Positions 27,010-35,723 of a stretch of 64,000 bases of DNA are shown here, one piece after another; the first letter of the stretch is position 1, and every line of letters begins with the position of its first letter. Source of the DNA: Verrucomicrobiota bacterium (lineage in GTDB: Bacteria > Verrucomicrobiota > Verrucomicrobiia > Chthoniobacterales > SZAS-18); NCBI GenBank assembly GCA_025353105.1, contig JANXRG010000006.1, positions 1-64,000 of the forward strand. Direction: 5' to 3'. The notes beneath the pieces were generated by a model. The model did not search any database. It was not told the DNA's origin and saw only the letters and a list, made by a program, of their open reading frames with translations. The translations under genes were made by a program, and so were the position numbers.

Positions 27010-27852
27010 TCAGCGCAGCAGCGCATTCCACTCGTTGGCGGCCTGCGTCACGACGAGTTCATGCCCGGCGTCGGGAAACTCGCGGAGTACCGCCCAGCCC
27101 GGATGCATTTCCGCCAGCTCGCGGCCCATCTTCGCGGGAATGAGCGCGTCGCCGGCACCATGAAAGATCCGAAGCGTGGGCCGCGGCGTCCGCGCCGCCA
27201 GCTTCGTCAGGGCGGTCCGATTGTCGTACCGGTCGCGCAACACCTCGCACAACGGCCAGCCGACGGAACGGCGGGCCATGTCCTTCAGCGAAGTAAACGG
27301 TGCGATGAGGACGATGTCCCGCACCGGGTAAAGCTGCGCGAATTCGAGCGCGACCGCGGCCCCGAGCGAATGGCCGCCGACGGAGAGTCGGGATGCGAGT
27401 TGCGCGGGCTCCACGTGCAGCACCGCGGCGAGCGCGGGAAGGGCTTTCGGCAACGACTCGCGGATTGCCGGTCGGGATGGGGTTCCGTCGCACTCCCCGT
27501 AGCCCGGGTATTCGACGAACAGGAGCCCTGCGCGCCGGGCCGGATCCGGCGGCAGGACGCCCAGCCAGTCGAGCGCGAGCGATCCGTTGCCGCCGAACAC
27601 GACCCAGATCGAGTCCGGCAGGACATTCCCGGGCAACGCGCGGGGCGGGACGTAATAGGCCCATTGCGTTCCATGCGACGTTTCAAAGCGCACGGGAGCG
27701 AGCCCGGCGGCCGCGAGACGCGCGACCAAACCCGCGGGGTAATGGCGCGGAAAATAGATCAACCGCCGCTGCGCGAAATACAGCACGGCGGCCAGAACGA
27801 GGAAGACGATCGCAACGAGGCGCATGAATCGGAGGCCGGCGCGAAGCCACAT
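27010..27852 (-). CDS. Membrane-anchored alpha/beta hydrolase
   Basis: A 280-residue protein with an N-terminal anchor helix (LVAIVFLVLAAVLYFA) and an alpha/beta-hydrolase domain: oxyanion region VVFGGNGSLALDW, nucleophile elbow GGHSLGAAVALEF, acid in HGAGDALIP and catalytic His in PDAGHELV. It resembles the BEM46/YqiA-like group; the ester or amide substrate is unknown. Start ATG 27852; 27825 is also possible. Confidence 0.85.
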   Translation of the reverse strand: MWLRAGLRFMRLVAIVFLVLAAVLYFAQRRLIYFPRHYPAGLVARLAAAGLAPVRFETSHGTQWAYYVPPRALPGNVLPDSIWVVFGGNGSLALDWLGVLPPDPARRAGLLFVEYPGYGECDGTPSRPAIRESLPKALPALAAVLHVEPAQLASRLSVGGHSLGAAVALEFAQLYPVRDIVLIAPFTSLKDMARRSVGWPLCEVLRDRYDNRTALTKLAARTPRPTLRIFHGAGDALIPAKMGRELAEMHPGWAVLREFPDAGHELVVTQAANEWNALLR

Positions 27853-27923
27853 CCCCGAACTATTAACGCAGGAATCACGTGCCGCGGGCATGGAAATAGT
27901 TTACGAGCTAAGATAAATTTTCG

Positions 27924-29276
27924 ATGGTGCACCGCGAACCCCCCATGCAGTCCGAATTTTCCAGTCCGCGCGAACTCGCGGCGCTCATCTACGAGCGCTG
28001 GCCGCAGGAACCCGGCAGCGAAGCCGACCGTGCCGATCTCCGGCCTGACCCGGACACGCTGACGGAGCTGATTCGCATTTGCTTCCAGGCGAGTCTCCTG
28101 CGCGAAGAGGCGCGGCCCGTGACCTTTCGCTTGATCCTGGCCGAGCCCGGTCGTTTTCCCGCCGAGCACGGGCCGCCGCTCGGGCTCCATCGCCTCGAAT
28201 TGGGCAACACCCGCCCGCTGAATCCGCTCGAGCTGCGCCGGCTTTCCCCCGCCGCGAACGTCCACCGCAGCATGATTGGTGTGCGCTGGGATGAGGAGGA
28301 TGGCCTGCGGATCTGGGGCATCATCCACAGCGGCTTGAGCTGGCTGCAGAATATTTACGGCGGCCGCGGCCATTCGCAGTCGCTGCCACAGGAACTCGTG
28401 ATCACCGTCACCGCTCCGGGACGACTCGCCGTCGGCTTCGGCGCCGAGATCATCGCGCGCTACGACGGCACCCGCATCACCGGCCCGTCGCTCAATATTT
28501 TCCAGGCCAAATGGCTCGGTCGCACGTTCGCGGAGGCCGCGGAGGAACTCGTGGAAATCCACGCCACGGCCCGGCAACAGGCGGACAAGCAATGGGCCAC
28601 GCTCGATCCCGCCCTCATCCGCGTCATCGCCACGCACATGATGAAGCGGATGATCTCCGCGGTGCGATCGTCGGGTCACGGCGGTACGATCACAATCATC
28701 CCCCCCGAGATGGCGACGGAATGCTGCGGCTCGAATCAATTCATCAACGTGAAGTACCGCTTCGCCGAGGGCGAGCCGCGACGCCGGTTTCGCACGCTGC
28801 TGGTGGGCATCATGAATCGTCTCGCGGCGTTGCACGGCGAGGGCGGCGAAATGGAATGGGATCTCGCCAAGCCGGTCGGCTGGAAGGAGTACCTCGCCTG
28901 CTCCGACGAGGATCTCTCCACCCTCGACGATGGCATTTTCGAAATGGCCCACCTCATCGCCGGTTGCACCGAGGTGGACGGCGCGGTGGTGTTGACGAAA
29001 AAATTTGAACTGCTCGGATTCGGCGGCGAAATCAGCGGTCTGCTGCCGAACGTGGAGGTCGTCCGCAAGGCGCGCGACATGGAAGGCACCATCTACGAGG
29101 AGGAATCGACCGAGAGTGTGGGCACGCGGCACCGGTCGACCTACCGGCTTTGTCGCGCGATCCCGGAAAATCTCGCGATCGTCCTGTCGCAGGATGGCGG
29201 CGTGCGCTTTGTAAAGTTCGAGGGGAACGCCGTCACCTATTGGGATCAATCGAGCACCAGTTCGCTCGACGTATAG
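27924..29276 (+). CDS. Protein with a DisA/CdaA-like (DAC) nucleotide-cyclase domain
   Basis: A 450-residue cytosolic protein. The C-terminal third resembles the diadenylate cyclase (DAC) domain: DGA at 352-354 (VDGAVVLTKKFELLGFGGEI) and GTRHR at 400-404, followed by AIVLSQDGGVRFV, the order seen in DisA and CdaA. DGA and RHR are the catalytic motifs that make c-di-AMP; here they are about 50 residues apart rather than about 33 as I recall for DisA. The N-terminal 300 residues are unfamiliar; related DAC-like 'sensor' domains have been predicted from comparative genomics. It may synthesise or merely bind a nucleotide. Divergent from the alpha/beta hydrolase. Confidence 0.7.
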   Translation: MVHREPPMQSEFSSPRELAALIYERWPQEPGSEADRADLRPDPDTLTELIRICFQASLLREEARPVTFRLILAEPGRFPAEHGPPLGLHRLELGNTRPLNPLELRRLSPAANVHRSMIGVRWDEEDGLRIWGIIHSGLSWLQNIYGGRGHSQSLPQELVITVTAPGRLAVGFGAEIIARYDGTRITGPSLNIFQAKWLGRTFAEAAEELVEIHATARQQADKQWATLDPALIRVIATHMMKRMISAVRSSGHGGTITIIPPEMATECCGSNQFINVKYRFAEGEPRRRFRTLLVGIMNRLAALHGEGGEMEWDLAKPVGWKEYLACSDEDLSTLDDGIFEMAHLIAGCTEVDGAVVLTKKFELLGFGGEISGLLPNVEVVRKARDMEGTIYEEESTESVGTRHRSTYRLCRAIPENLAIVLSQDGGVRFVKFEGNAVTYWDQSSTSSLDV

Positions 29277-29339
29277 GCGGACCGGCGCGAAACGCTTCGC
29301 GCTTGCCACCCTCCCAGGTGCCGTGCGTAACGTGCCGAC

Positions 29340-29879
29340 ATGCATTCCCGCCCGATCCGTCTCGCCCTAACCTTCCTGGCCACTTCCACGCTGTTGATAT
29401 CCGCTGACGCCTTCCGGGTGCGCGCCGACGATGCGCCGCCGGGGCCCCCGGTAGTGAGTTTCAAACTCCTGCTGCCGTTCCTCCCTACGGCCCTGCCCGG
29501 TTGGACCGCGGAAAAGCCGGAGGGCAACACGATGCGGATGGGTCCGATGGAAATCACGACCGTGGGCGCGAAGTTCGCCAAGGGCACCAGCACCGCAAGC
29601 GTCGAGATCATCGATTACTCGCTGCAGCGTGCGGTCATGAAGGGCATGATGCTGGGCTGGCAGTTTTCGAACGAGAGCACGGATGGCTACCAAAAAGGCG
29701 TGACGATCGACGGCGTCTCCGGCTACGAGACGTTTTCCGAGGCCGACAAGGAGACGAACGTGTTCGTTATCGCGGGCGACCGGTTTTGGGTGCACGTCGA
29801 AGTCCGGGGTGAAAAACCCGAGGTTGCACGCGCGTGGCTCGGTAAAATCGATCTCAAGGGCCTGGCTGGGGTGAACTAG
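29340..29879 (+). CDS. Secreted protein, unknown function
   Basis: A 179-residue product with a signal peptide (RLALTFLATSTLLISADAF) and a mature beta-rich domain with GNTMRMGPMEITTVGAKF and GDRFWVHVEVRGEKPEVAR. Its pattern (a short-lived 'amplitude' domain with SLQRAVMKGM) is not one I can assign. It may be periplasmic. A 7-nt inverted array follows its stop. Confidence 0.65.
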   Translation: MHSRPIRLALTFLATSTLLISADAFRVRADDAPPGPPVVSFKLLLPFLPTALPGWTAEKPEGNTMRMGPMEITTVGAKFAKGTSTASVEIIDYSLQRAVMKGMMLGWQFSNESTDGYQKGVTIDGVSGYETFSEADKETNVFVIAGDRFWVHVEVRGEKPEVARAWLGKIDLKGLAGVN

Positions 29880-33866: not shown

Positions 33867-35723
33867 ATGTGCGGCATCGTCGGCTACATCGGCAAGGCTC
33901 CCGCCGCTCCCATCATGCTCGATGGGCTGCATCGGCTCGAGTACCGCGGTTATGACTCGGCCGGGCTGGCCACGCTAAACGGGCATGGGCTGGAGGTGCG
34001 CAAGGCCGTCGGTCGGATTCAAAACCTCGCGGATCTCGTGGGCCGCGAGGGCGTGGGCGGTTCGCTGGGCATCAGCCACACGCGCTGGGCCACGCACGGT
34101 GCGGTGACCAACGAGAACGCGCATCCGCATTTCGACCAGAGCGGCAAGCTCGCTATCGTCCACAACGGCGTCATCGAAAACTACCAGCAGCTCCGCGAGG
34201 AACTCGTGGAACAGGGCCACGCCTTTCGTTCGCAGACGGACACCGAGGTCCTCGCGCACTACATCGGCATGCTCTATGACCGCGTGGGCGGCCCGCCGTC
34301 GAAGGCGAGACTCGTGGACGCGGTGCGCACGACGTTGAACAAGACGATTGGCGCTTACGGCCTTGCGATCATCCACGCGGACCTGCCCGACCTGATGATC
34401 GGCGTTCGGCGCGGCAGCCCCCTGGCACTTGGCTTGGGCAAGGGCGAGCACTTCCTGGCGAGCGACCCGGCGGCTTTTGCGGCGCACACGCGCGAGGTCG
34501 TTTACCTGAACGACTTTGACATGGCCGTGATCGAGCGCGGCCAGTTTGAGATTCGCTCGCTGCTCGGCGGCGGACCCGGGAGCTACGAAGTCAGCGAATT
34601 CGAATTCACCGGCGAAGCGGCGAAGAAGGGCGACTACGCGCACTTCATGCTCAAGGAAATCTACGAGCAGCCGAACACCGTGCGCGACGCCATGCGCGGA
34701 CGCCTCTCACACGAGGATGCCACCGCGCGGCTCGGTGGATTGAACATGACGCCGCAGGAATTGCGCGACATCGACCGCGTCATTCTCTCGGCCTGCGGCA
34801 GCGCCTGTCACGCCGCGCTCGTCGGCGAGTACATTCTCGAGTCGCTTGCGCGCGTCCCGGCGGAGGTCGATTACGCGAGCGAGTTCCGCTGGCGCAACAT
34901 GCCGCTGAACAAGGACACGCTCATCCTCGCCATCAGCCAGAGCGGTGAGACGGCCGACACCCTCGCCGCCCTGCGCGAGGGCATCCGGCGCGGCCACCGC
35001 GTGCGCGGCGTCTGCAACAATGTCGCCAGTACGATCGCGCGCGAAAGCGGCGGCGGCGTGTACATGCACGCCGGACCGGAAATTGGTGTCGCCGCGACGA
35101 AATCCTTCACCAGCCAGGTGGTCATCCTCGCGCTGCTCGCGCTCCTGCTCGGCCGGATCCGGCATCTCTCGTTCGGCGAGGGACTCGCCATCATCAAGGC
35201 GCTGGAGGCGCTCCCCGATCAAATTGCGCGCTGCCTCGAACTGGATTCGAAAATCAAGACGATCGCAGAGAAGTATGCCGACGCGGAAGGCATGCTCTTC
35301 CTCGGGCGGCAGTACAATTATCCCATCGCGCTTGAGGGCGCGTTGAAGATGAAGGAAATTTCCTACATCAACGCGAACGGCCATCCGAGCGGCGAATTGA
35401 AGCACGGCATCATCGCGCTGATTCGCCCCGAATTCCCCAGCGTGTTCATCGCGCCCGACGACACCGTCTTCGAGAAGAACCTGAACAACATCGAGCAGGT
35501 GAAGGCTCGGAAGGGACCGATCATCGCGATCGGCACCGAGGGCGCGACCGGTCGCCTCGACCAGATTTGCAACGACGTCATCGCCGTGCCGCGCACGCTC
35601 GAATTTCTCACCCCACTGCTCACGGTCATCCCCCTTCAGCTCTTCGCCTATCACACCGCCGTGCATCTCGGCTGCGATGTCGACAAGCCGCGCAATCTCG
35701 CCAAGAGCGTGACGGTGGAGTGA
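33867..35723 (+). CDS. glmS: Glutamine-fructose-6-phosphate aminotransferase GlmS
   Basis: A 618-residue enzyme making glucosamine-6-phosphate for cell-wall precursors. The N-terminal glutaminase domain begins MCGIVGYIG with the catalytic Cys next to Met; TRWATHG and HNGVIENY follow. Two SIS domains carry SACGSACHAAL, SQSGETADTLAAL and the C-terminal NLAKSVTVE. No glmS ribozyme is visible upstream; the leader is a heptamer array instead. Confidence 0.97.
   Translation: MCGIVGYIGKAPAAPIMLDGLHRLEYRGYDSAGLATLNGHGLEVRKAVGRIQNLADLVGREGVGGSLGISHTRWATHGAVTNENAHPHFDQSGKLAIVHNGVIENYQQLREELVEQGHAFRSQTDTEVLAHYIGMLYDRVGGPPSKARLVDAVRTTLNKTIGAYGLAIIHADLPDLMIGVRRGSPLALGLGKGEHFLASDPAAFAAHTREVVYLNDFDMAVIERGQFEIRSLLGGGPGSYEVSEFEFTGEAAKKGDYAHFMLKEIYEQPNTVRDAMRGRLSHEDATARLGGLNMTPQELRDIDRVILSACGSACHAALVGEYILESLARVPAEVDYASEFRWRNMPLNKDTLILAISQSGETADTLAALREGIRRGHRVRGVCNNVASTIARESGGGVYMHAGPEIGVAATKSFTSQVVILALLALLLGRIRHLSFGEGLAIIKALEALPDQIARCLELDSKIKTIAEKYADAEGMLFLGRQYNYPIALEGALKMKEISYINANGHPSGELKHGIIALIRPEFPSVFIAPDDTVFEKNLNNIEQVKARKGPIIAIGTEGATGRLDQICNDVIAVPRTLEFLTPLLTVIPLQLFAYHTAVHLGCDVDKPRNLAKSVTVE

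Follow-up and report, generated by a model that had tools for sequence, protein, structure and literature searches.

A DACNV-DAC protein of the Verrucomicrobiota lineage SZAS-18 as a probable diadenylate cyclase in the apparent absence of CdaA

The window studied here, a stretch of 64,000 nucleotides from a member of the SZAS-18 lineage (Verrucomicrobiota, Chthoniobacterales), contains an ORF of 450 amino acids at 27924-29276 (+), the position at which the preliminary description had placed it. Homologous proteins have the equivalent of Met8 as their first residue, so the gene probably starts at 27945 and encodes a DACNV-DAC protein of 443 amino acids with conserved coding sequence (27945-29276, +). 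In comparison with the nearest relative, which is from the same genus and 86% identical, there are 52, 37 and 183 differences at the first, second and third codon positions, respectively. This pattern, along with the disruption in related genomes of an ORF on the opposite strand, argues that the + frame is coding and that the gene is real. The antisense ORF (27759-29345, -) has 528 codons and is open across the entire DACNV gene, but was rejected as a true gene since it is interrupted in the relatives; it is probably a by-product of the high GC content at third codon positions. The genome from which the window was taken has a size of 3.72 Mb and is 97.6% complete.

The gene is flanked by an alpha/beta hydrolase gene and an ORF without family assignment. 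Directly downstream is an ORF of 179 amino acids (29340-29876, +) with a signal-peptide-like start and no Pfam match. Further downstream, at a distance of 4.6 kb from the DACNV gene, is glmS (33867-35720, +), which is not a conserved neighbor. Neighboring genes for a metallo-beta-lactamase and the alpha/beta hydrolase are partly retained, within the genus only, and no operon partner is conserved across phyla. Neither riboswitches nor other RNAs were identified within the window, and a search with PADLOC for membership in a defense system gave no match.

The N-terminal part of the protein was previously described as a new domain of a possible unrecognized cyclase, but the terms “new” and “unrecognized” are incorrect. 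Residues 39-135 (28038-28328, +) match the Pfam domain DACNV (PF21751), annotated as a “probable sensor domain”, with an E-value of 3.2e-28 and a score of 98.2 bits, as compared to the curated cut-off of 27. The same domain was matched by all 28 family members scanned, including all 22 sequences in the alignment, and its broad distribution over phyla shows that it is not new. The literature searched contained no mention of DACNV, and no experimental study of the domain or of the widespread DACNV-DAC proteins was found there; comparative genomics work by Burroughs et al. from 2015 probably bears on the domain.

The C-terminal half, covering approximately residues 228-446 (28606-29261, +), was correctly recognized as a DAC domain. 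The window protein itself obtained only 14.5 bits against Pfam DAC (PF02457), below the cut-off of 27, but this cut-off is passed by homologs scoring 33.2, 29.9 and 27.2 bits, with the passing sequences belonging to the Nitrospirota, Geobacteraceae and Cyanobacteriota. In total, 16 of the 22 aligned sequences match the profile with an E-value of 0.01 or better, and an alignment of the family to canonical CdaA with hhalign (E 2.8e-4) places the DGA, GTRHR and S-x-x motifs all in register. The preliminary description had suggested a comparison of the predicted fold with that of DAC, and the modeled fold is indeed that of a DAC domain. Using an AlphaFold model of the whole protein (pLDDT 83, pTM 0.73) as a query in Foldseek searches against PDB, the matches at ranks 1 to 11 were all to diadenylate cyclases (DisA, DacM). 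Ten of these eleven had a probability of 1.00 and E-values of 5e-3 to 4e-2, a probability reached by no other type of protein, while the matches beyond rank 11 had probabilities of 0.08 or less and represent noise. In the model, DGA is flanked by a helix and a strand, GTRHR starts the helix at 401-412, and SQD is located between the strands at 417-421 and 427-432. Compared by topology, the D/G/A, R/H/R and S-x-carboxylate residues of the model thus occupy the same places as in CdaA.

We examined the conservation of these motifs in 91 homologous sequences from many phyla. The DGA motif (residues 352-354; 28977-28985, +), which contains the ribose/metal aspartate, has D352 and G353 in all 91 sequences and A354 in 85. 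All five residues of GTRHR (400-404; 29121-29135, +), at the N-terminus of its helix, were present in 91 of 91 homologs, and Y407, R408 and S422 are likewise invariant. The distance of 50 residues from D352 to R402 is identical in 84 of the 91 homologs, and that of 20 residues from R402 to S422 in all of them. Both motifs and their spacing had thus been identified accurately, and the conservation of the residues and of the D-to-R spacing shows that they are not accidental. That the motifs arose by chance in a protein unrelated to DAC is extremely improbable; this explanation draws on the weak Pfam score of the window protein and on nothing else, and is refuted by the fold and the conservation.

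The canonical (V/I)SEE motif, which is a conserved feature of the DAC superfamily rather than a strict criterion for membership, is replaced family-wide by SQD (422-424; 29187-29195, +) at the metal/phosphate site. Here, the serine is found in 91 of 91 homologs, Q423 in 86 and D424 in 90, such that the serine and the last carboxylate are retained. The counterparts in Listeria CdaA are D71, T102-R103-H104, S122 and E124, and the adenine is contacted by L31 of the GALI motif and by the main chain of L88 (PMC7288161). The positions of D71 and R103 give a distance of 32 residues in CdaA as compared to 50 in the DACNV-DAC family, which contains an insertion of 18 residues between DGA and GTRHR. This insertion (approximately residues 376-395; 29049-29108, +) forms two strands in the model (379-383 and 391-395), carries the conserved residues D385 (90/91) and E387 (86/91), and rebuilds the stretch that corresponds to the adenine-contacting Leu88. 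The place of GALI is taken by HGGTITII (252-259; 28677-28700, +), which aligns weakly with HGALIVVE of PDB 2fb5, and G253 of the HGGT segment (252-255) was identified in all 91 homologs. Taken together, the conserved motifs and the Foldseek matches identify the C-terminal half as a DAC domain that contains an 18-residue insertion and has SQD where SEE is canonical.

The sequence of the enzyme is thus divergent but looks intact. The divergence, the loss of SEE and the score below the Pfam cut-off would all be compatible with a catalytically silent DAC-fold protein that senses ATP or c-di-AMP by binding it. However, a mere binder is expected to drift, and the invariance of the D, G, T, R, H, R and S residues in many phyla, with D424 in 90 of 91 sequences, points to a strong constraint on the catalytic residues. 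We therefore consider a silent sensor quite unlikely.

The N-terminal region as a whole (residues 12-228; 27957-28607, +) is modeled as one alpha/beta domain plus helices. When modeled alone (pLDDT 88, pTM 0.80) and compared to PDB, DisA was recovered at ranks 1, 2 and 5, with probabilities of 0.75, 0.66 and 0.54. The resemblance is weak, with a TM-score of about 0.33 and an rmsd of about 15, and TM-scores at this level are too low for the N-terminal region and DisA to be called one fold. The two halves of the protein share the element order alpha-beta-beta-alpha-beta-beta-alpha-beta-beta-beta, with extra elements in the C-terminal half. No internal duplication was detected by sequence, since the comparison of N- and C-terminal profiles (P 0.09) was no better than permuted controls and 22 of 200 block-permuted shuffles reached the observed score. 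These model comparisons provide a weak lead that DACNV may be a degenerate DAC domain. It is conceivable, if rather doubtful, that the protein consists of two fused DAC domains, of which one is dead and the other live, acting as a regulated and possibly product-altered cyclase that replaces CdaA in this genus. Matches of the N-terminal region to thermonuclease were at chance level only, and no viral relatives were identified by its fold.

The window protein does not differ from other proteins that combine DACNV (PF21751) and DAC (PF02457), with which it shares architecture, length, motifs, spacing and SQD. Like CdaA/DacA, which is encoded in the folP-cdaA-glmM operon, it has the DAC fold and the order GALI-like, DGA, GTRHR and S-x-x. 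In contrast to CdaA/DacA, which is a membrane protein, the window protein is apparently soluble and contains a DACNV region. The D-to-R distance is 32 residues in CdaA/DacA and 50 in the window protein, and SEE of CdaA/DacA corresponds to SQD. The window protein has neither N-terminal membrane helices nor folP and glmM as neighbors. DisA, which is among the closest solved structures, also has the DAC fold, but there the DAC domain is N-terminal and followed by a DNA-binding part, whereas the DAC domain of the window protein is C-terminal with nothing after it, and no DNA-binding part was identified in it. CdaS/DacB is a soluble DAC protein with a short helical N-terminal regulatory part, as compared to the window protein, in which the N-terminal region comprises about 220 residues and includes an alpha/beta domain.

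What is unusual is the genome context, in that CdaA is missing; this context is the new observation here, the protein family itself being already named in databases. No canonical DAC/CdaA protein was identified in the window's genome or in two other genomes of the genus (G289 and G290), neither with the family profile nor with CdaA from a sister genus as the query. Among the relatives, 53 of 57 have a DAC match with an E-value of 0.001 or better, mostly to canonical proteins and in a few cases to DACNV proteins only, and 33 of the 34 other genomes with DACNV contain a separate, strong canonical DAC. In sister genera (e.g., G291) the gene order is folP-cdaA-glmM. In the window's genome, folP (119-1024) is followed by glmM from about position 1028 on one and the same contig (L140, G000:C53, 119-2398), and their adjacency indicates that cdaA was removed and is not hidden in an assembly gap. 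Canonical cdaA has thus been lost in this genus, and the DACNV-DAC protein seems to be the only enzyme of the DAC superfamily left.

The genus has retained PgpH, the c-di-AMP phosphodiesterase, with 7TM-7TMR_HD and HD domains. Furthermore, c-di-AMP riboswitches were identified in the cdaA-less genomes G289 (43.0 bits) and G290 (55.9 bits). The two riboswitch loci are located at L151 3134-3306 (+) and L150 4702-4889 (-), and the one in G289 lies upstream of a long ORF, the start of which we take to resemble that of an SPFH/band-7 membrane protein. Neither a c-di-AMP riboswitch nor an RCK_C domain was identified in the window's genome, which speaks against the explanation favored below. The partner protein YbbR/CdaR is absent from the window's genome, the only one to which this result applies, and its absence carries no weight.

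The explanation that we favor, and consider likely, is that the DACNV-DAC protein is a soluble, sensor-controlled diadenylate cyclase, which in this genus stands in for the lost CdaA as the source of c-di-AMP. The C-terminal DAC domain would bind ATP as its substrate together with a metal at D352, R402-R404, S422 and D424. A dimer in which the DAC domains face each other would join two ATP molecules into c-di-AMP. The DACNV region would sense a cytoplasmic signal and set the rate of the cyclase. In most bacteria with DACNV, the protein would then provide a second, signal-specific source beside CdaA, whereas in this genus it would be the sole candidate from the DAC superfamily to feed PgpH and the c-di-AMP riboswitches.

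The chief rival is that this DAC-fold cyclase makes a different product, a cyclic or linear nucleotide other than c-di-AMP, such that most bacteria with DACNV would have a further messenger system. The co-occurrence with a separate canonical DAC in nearly all other DACNV genomes could mean just that. Also, the consistent replacement of SEE by SQD and the insertion in the Leu88 stretch, with D385 and E387 where CdaA contacts adenine, suggest that the base preference or the product could differ, and PgpH could act on another substrate, a point against c-di-AMP as the product. On the other hand, D424 retains the carboxylate, the genus has kept PgpH without cdaA and two of its genomes contain c-di-AMP riboswitches. 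Moreover, the three DACs of Bacillus make one product (PMC4568413). On balance, we find a different product unlikely. A genus that lacks CdaA but has c-di-AMP turnover and riboswitches represents a natural test of the DACNV product, the prediction being that the DACNV-DAC protein alone should make c-di-AMP in these bacteria.

A scan of genome contigs with the window protein as the single query gave no relatives, and an alignment-based scan of data with one genome per species then recovered 193. The relatives include DACNV-DAC proteins from Rubrobacter, Geomonas, Polyangium, Nitrospirota, Planctomycetota and Cyanobacteriota. Many homologs across phyla are about 40-50% identical to the window protein, as compared to 78-86% within the genus (85% for the homolog in G289). 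In the phylogenetic tree, the window protein clusters with its own genus and family with a support of 100, and this group is placed among other phyla, apart from the DACNV proteins of other families in its order and class. The placement suggests that a transfer of the gene between phyla probably occurred at some point, in a tree where the midpoint root and the weak support for some deep forks limit inferences about transfer. A second, diverged group of DACNV-DAC proteins on a long branch was identified within a single family of the order to which the window's genome belongs (L026, L027, L028 and L030). Three of its four genomes (G297, G315 and G329) also encode the ordinary DACNV type, which shows that paralogs exist.
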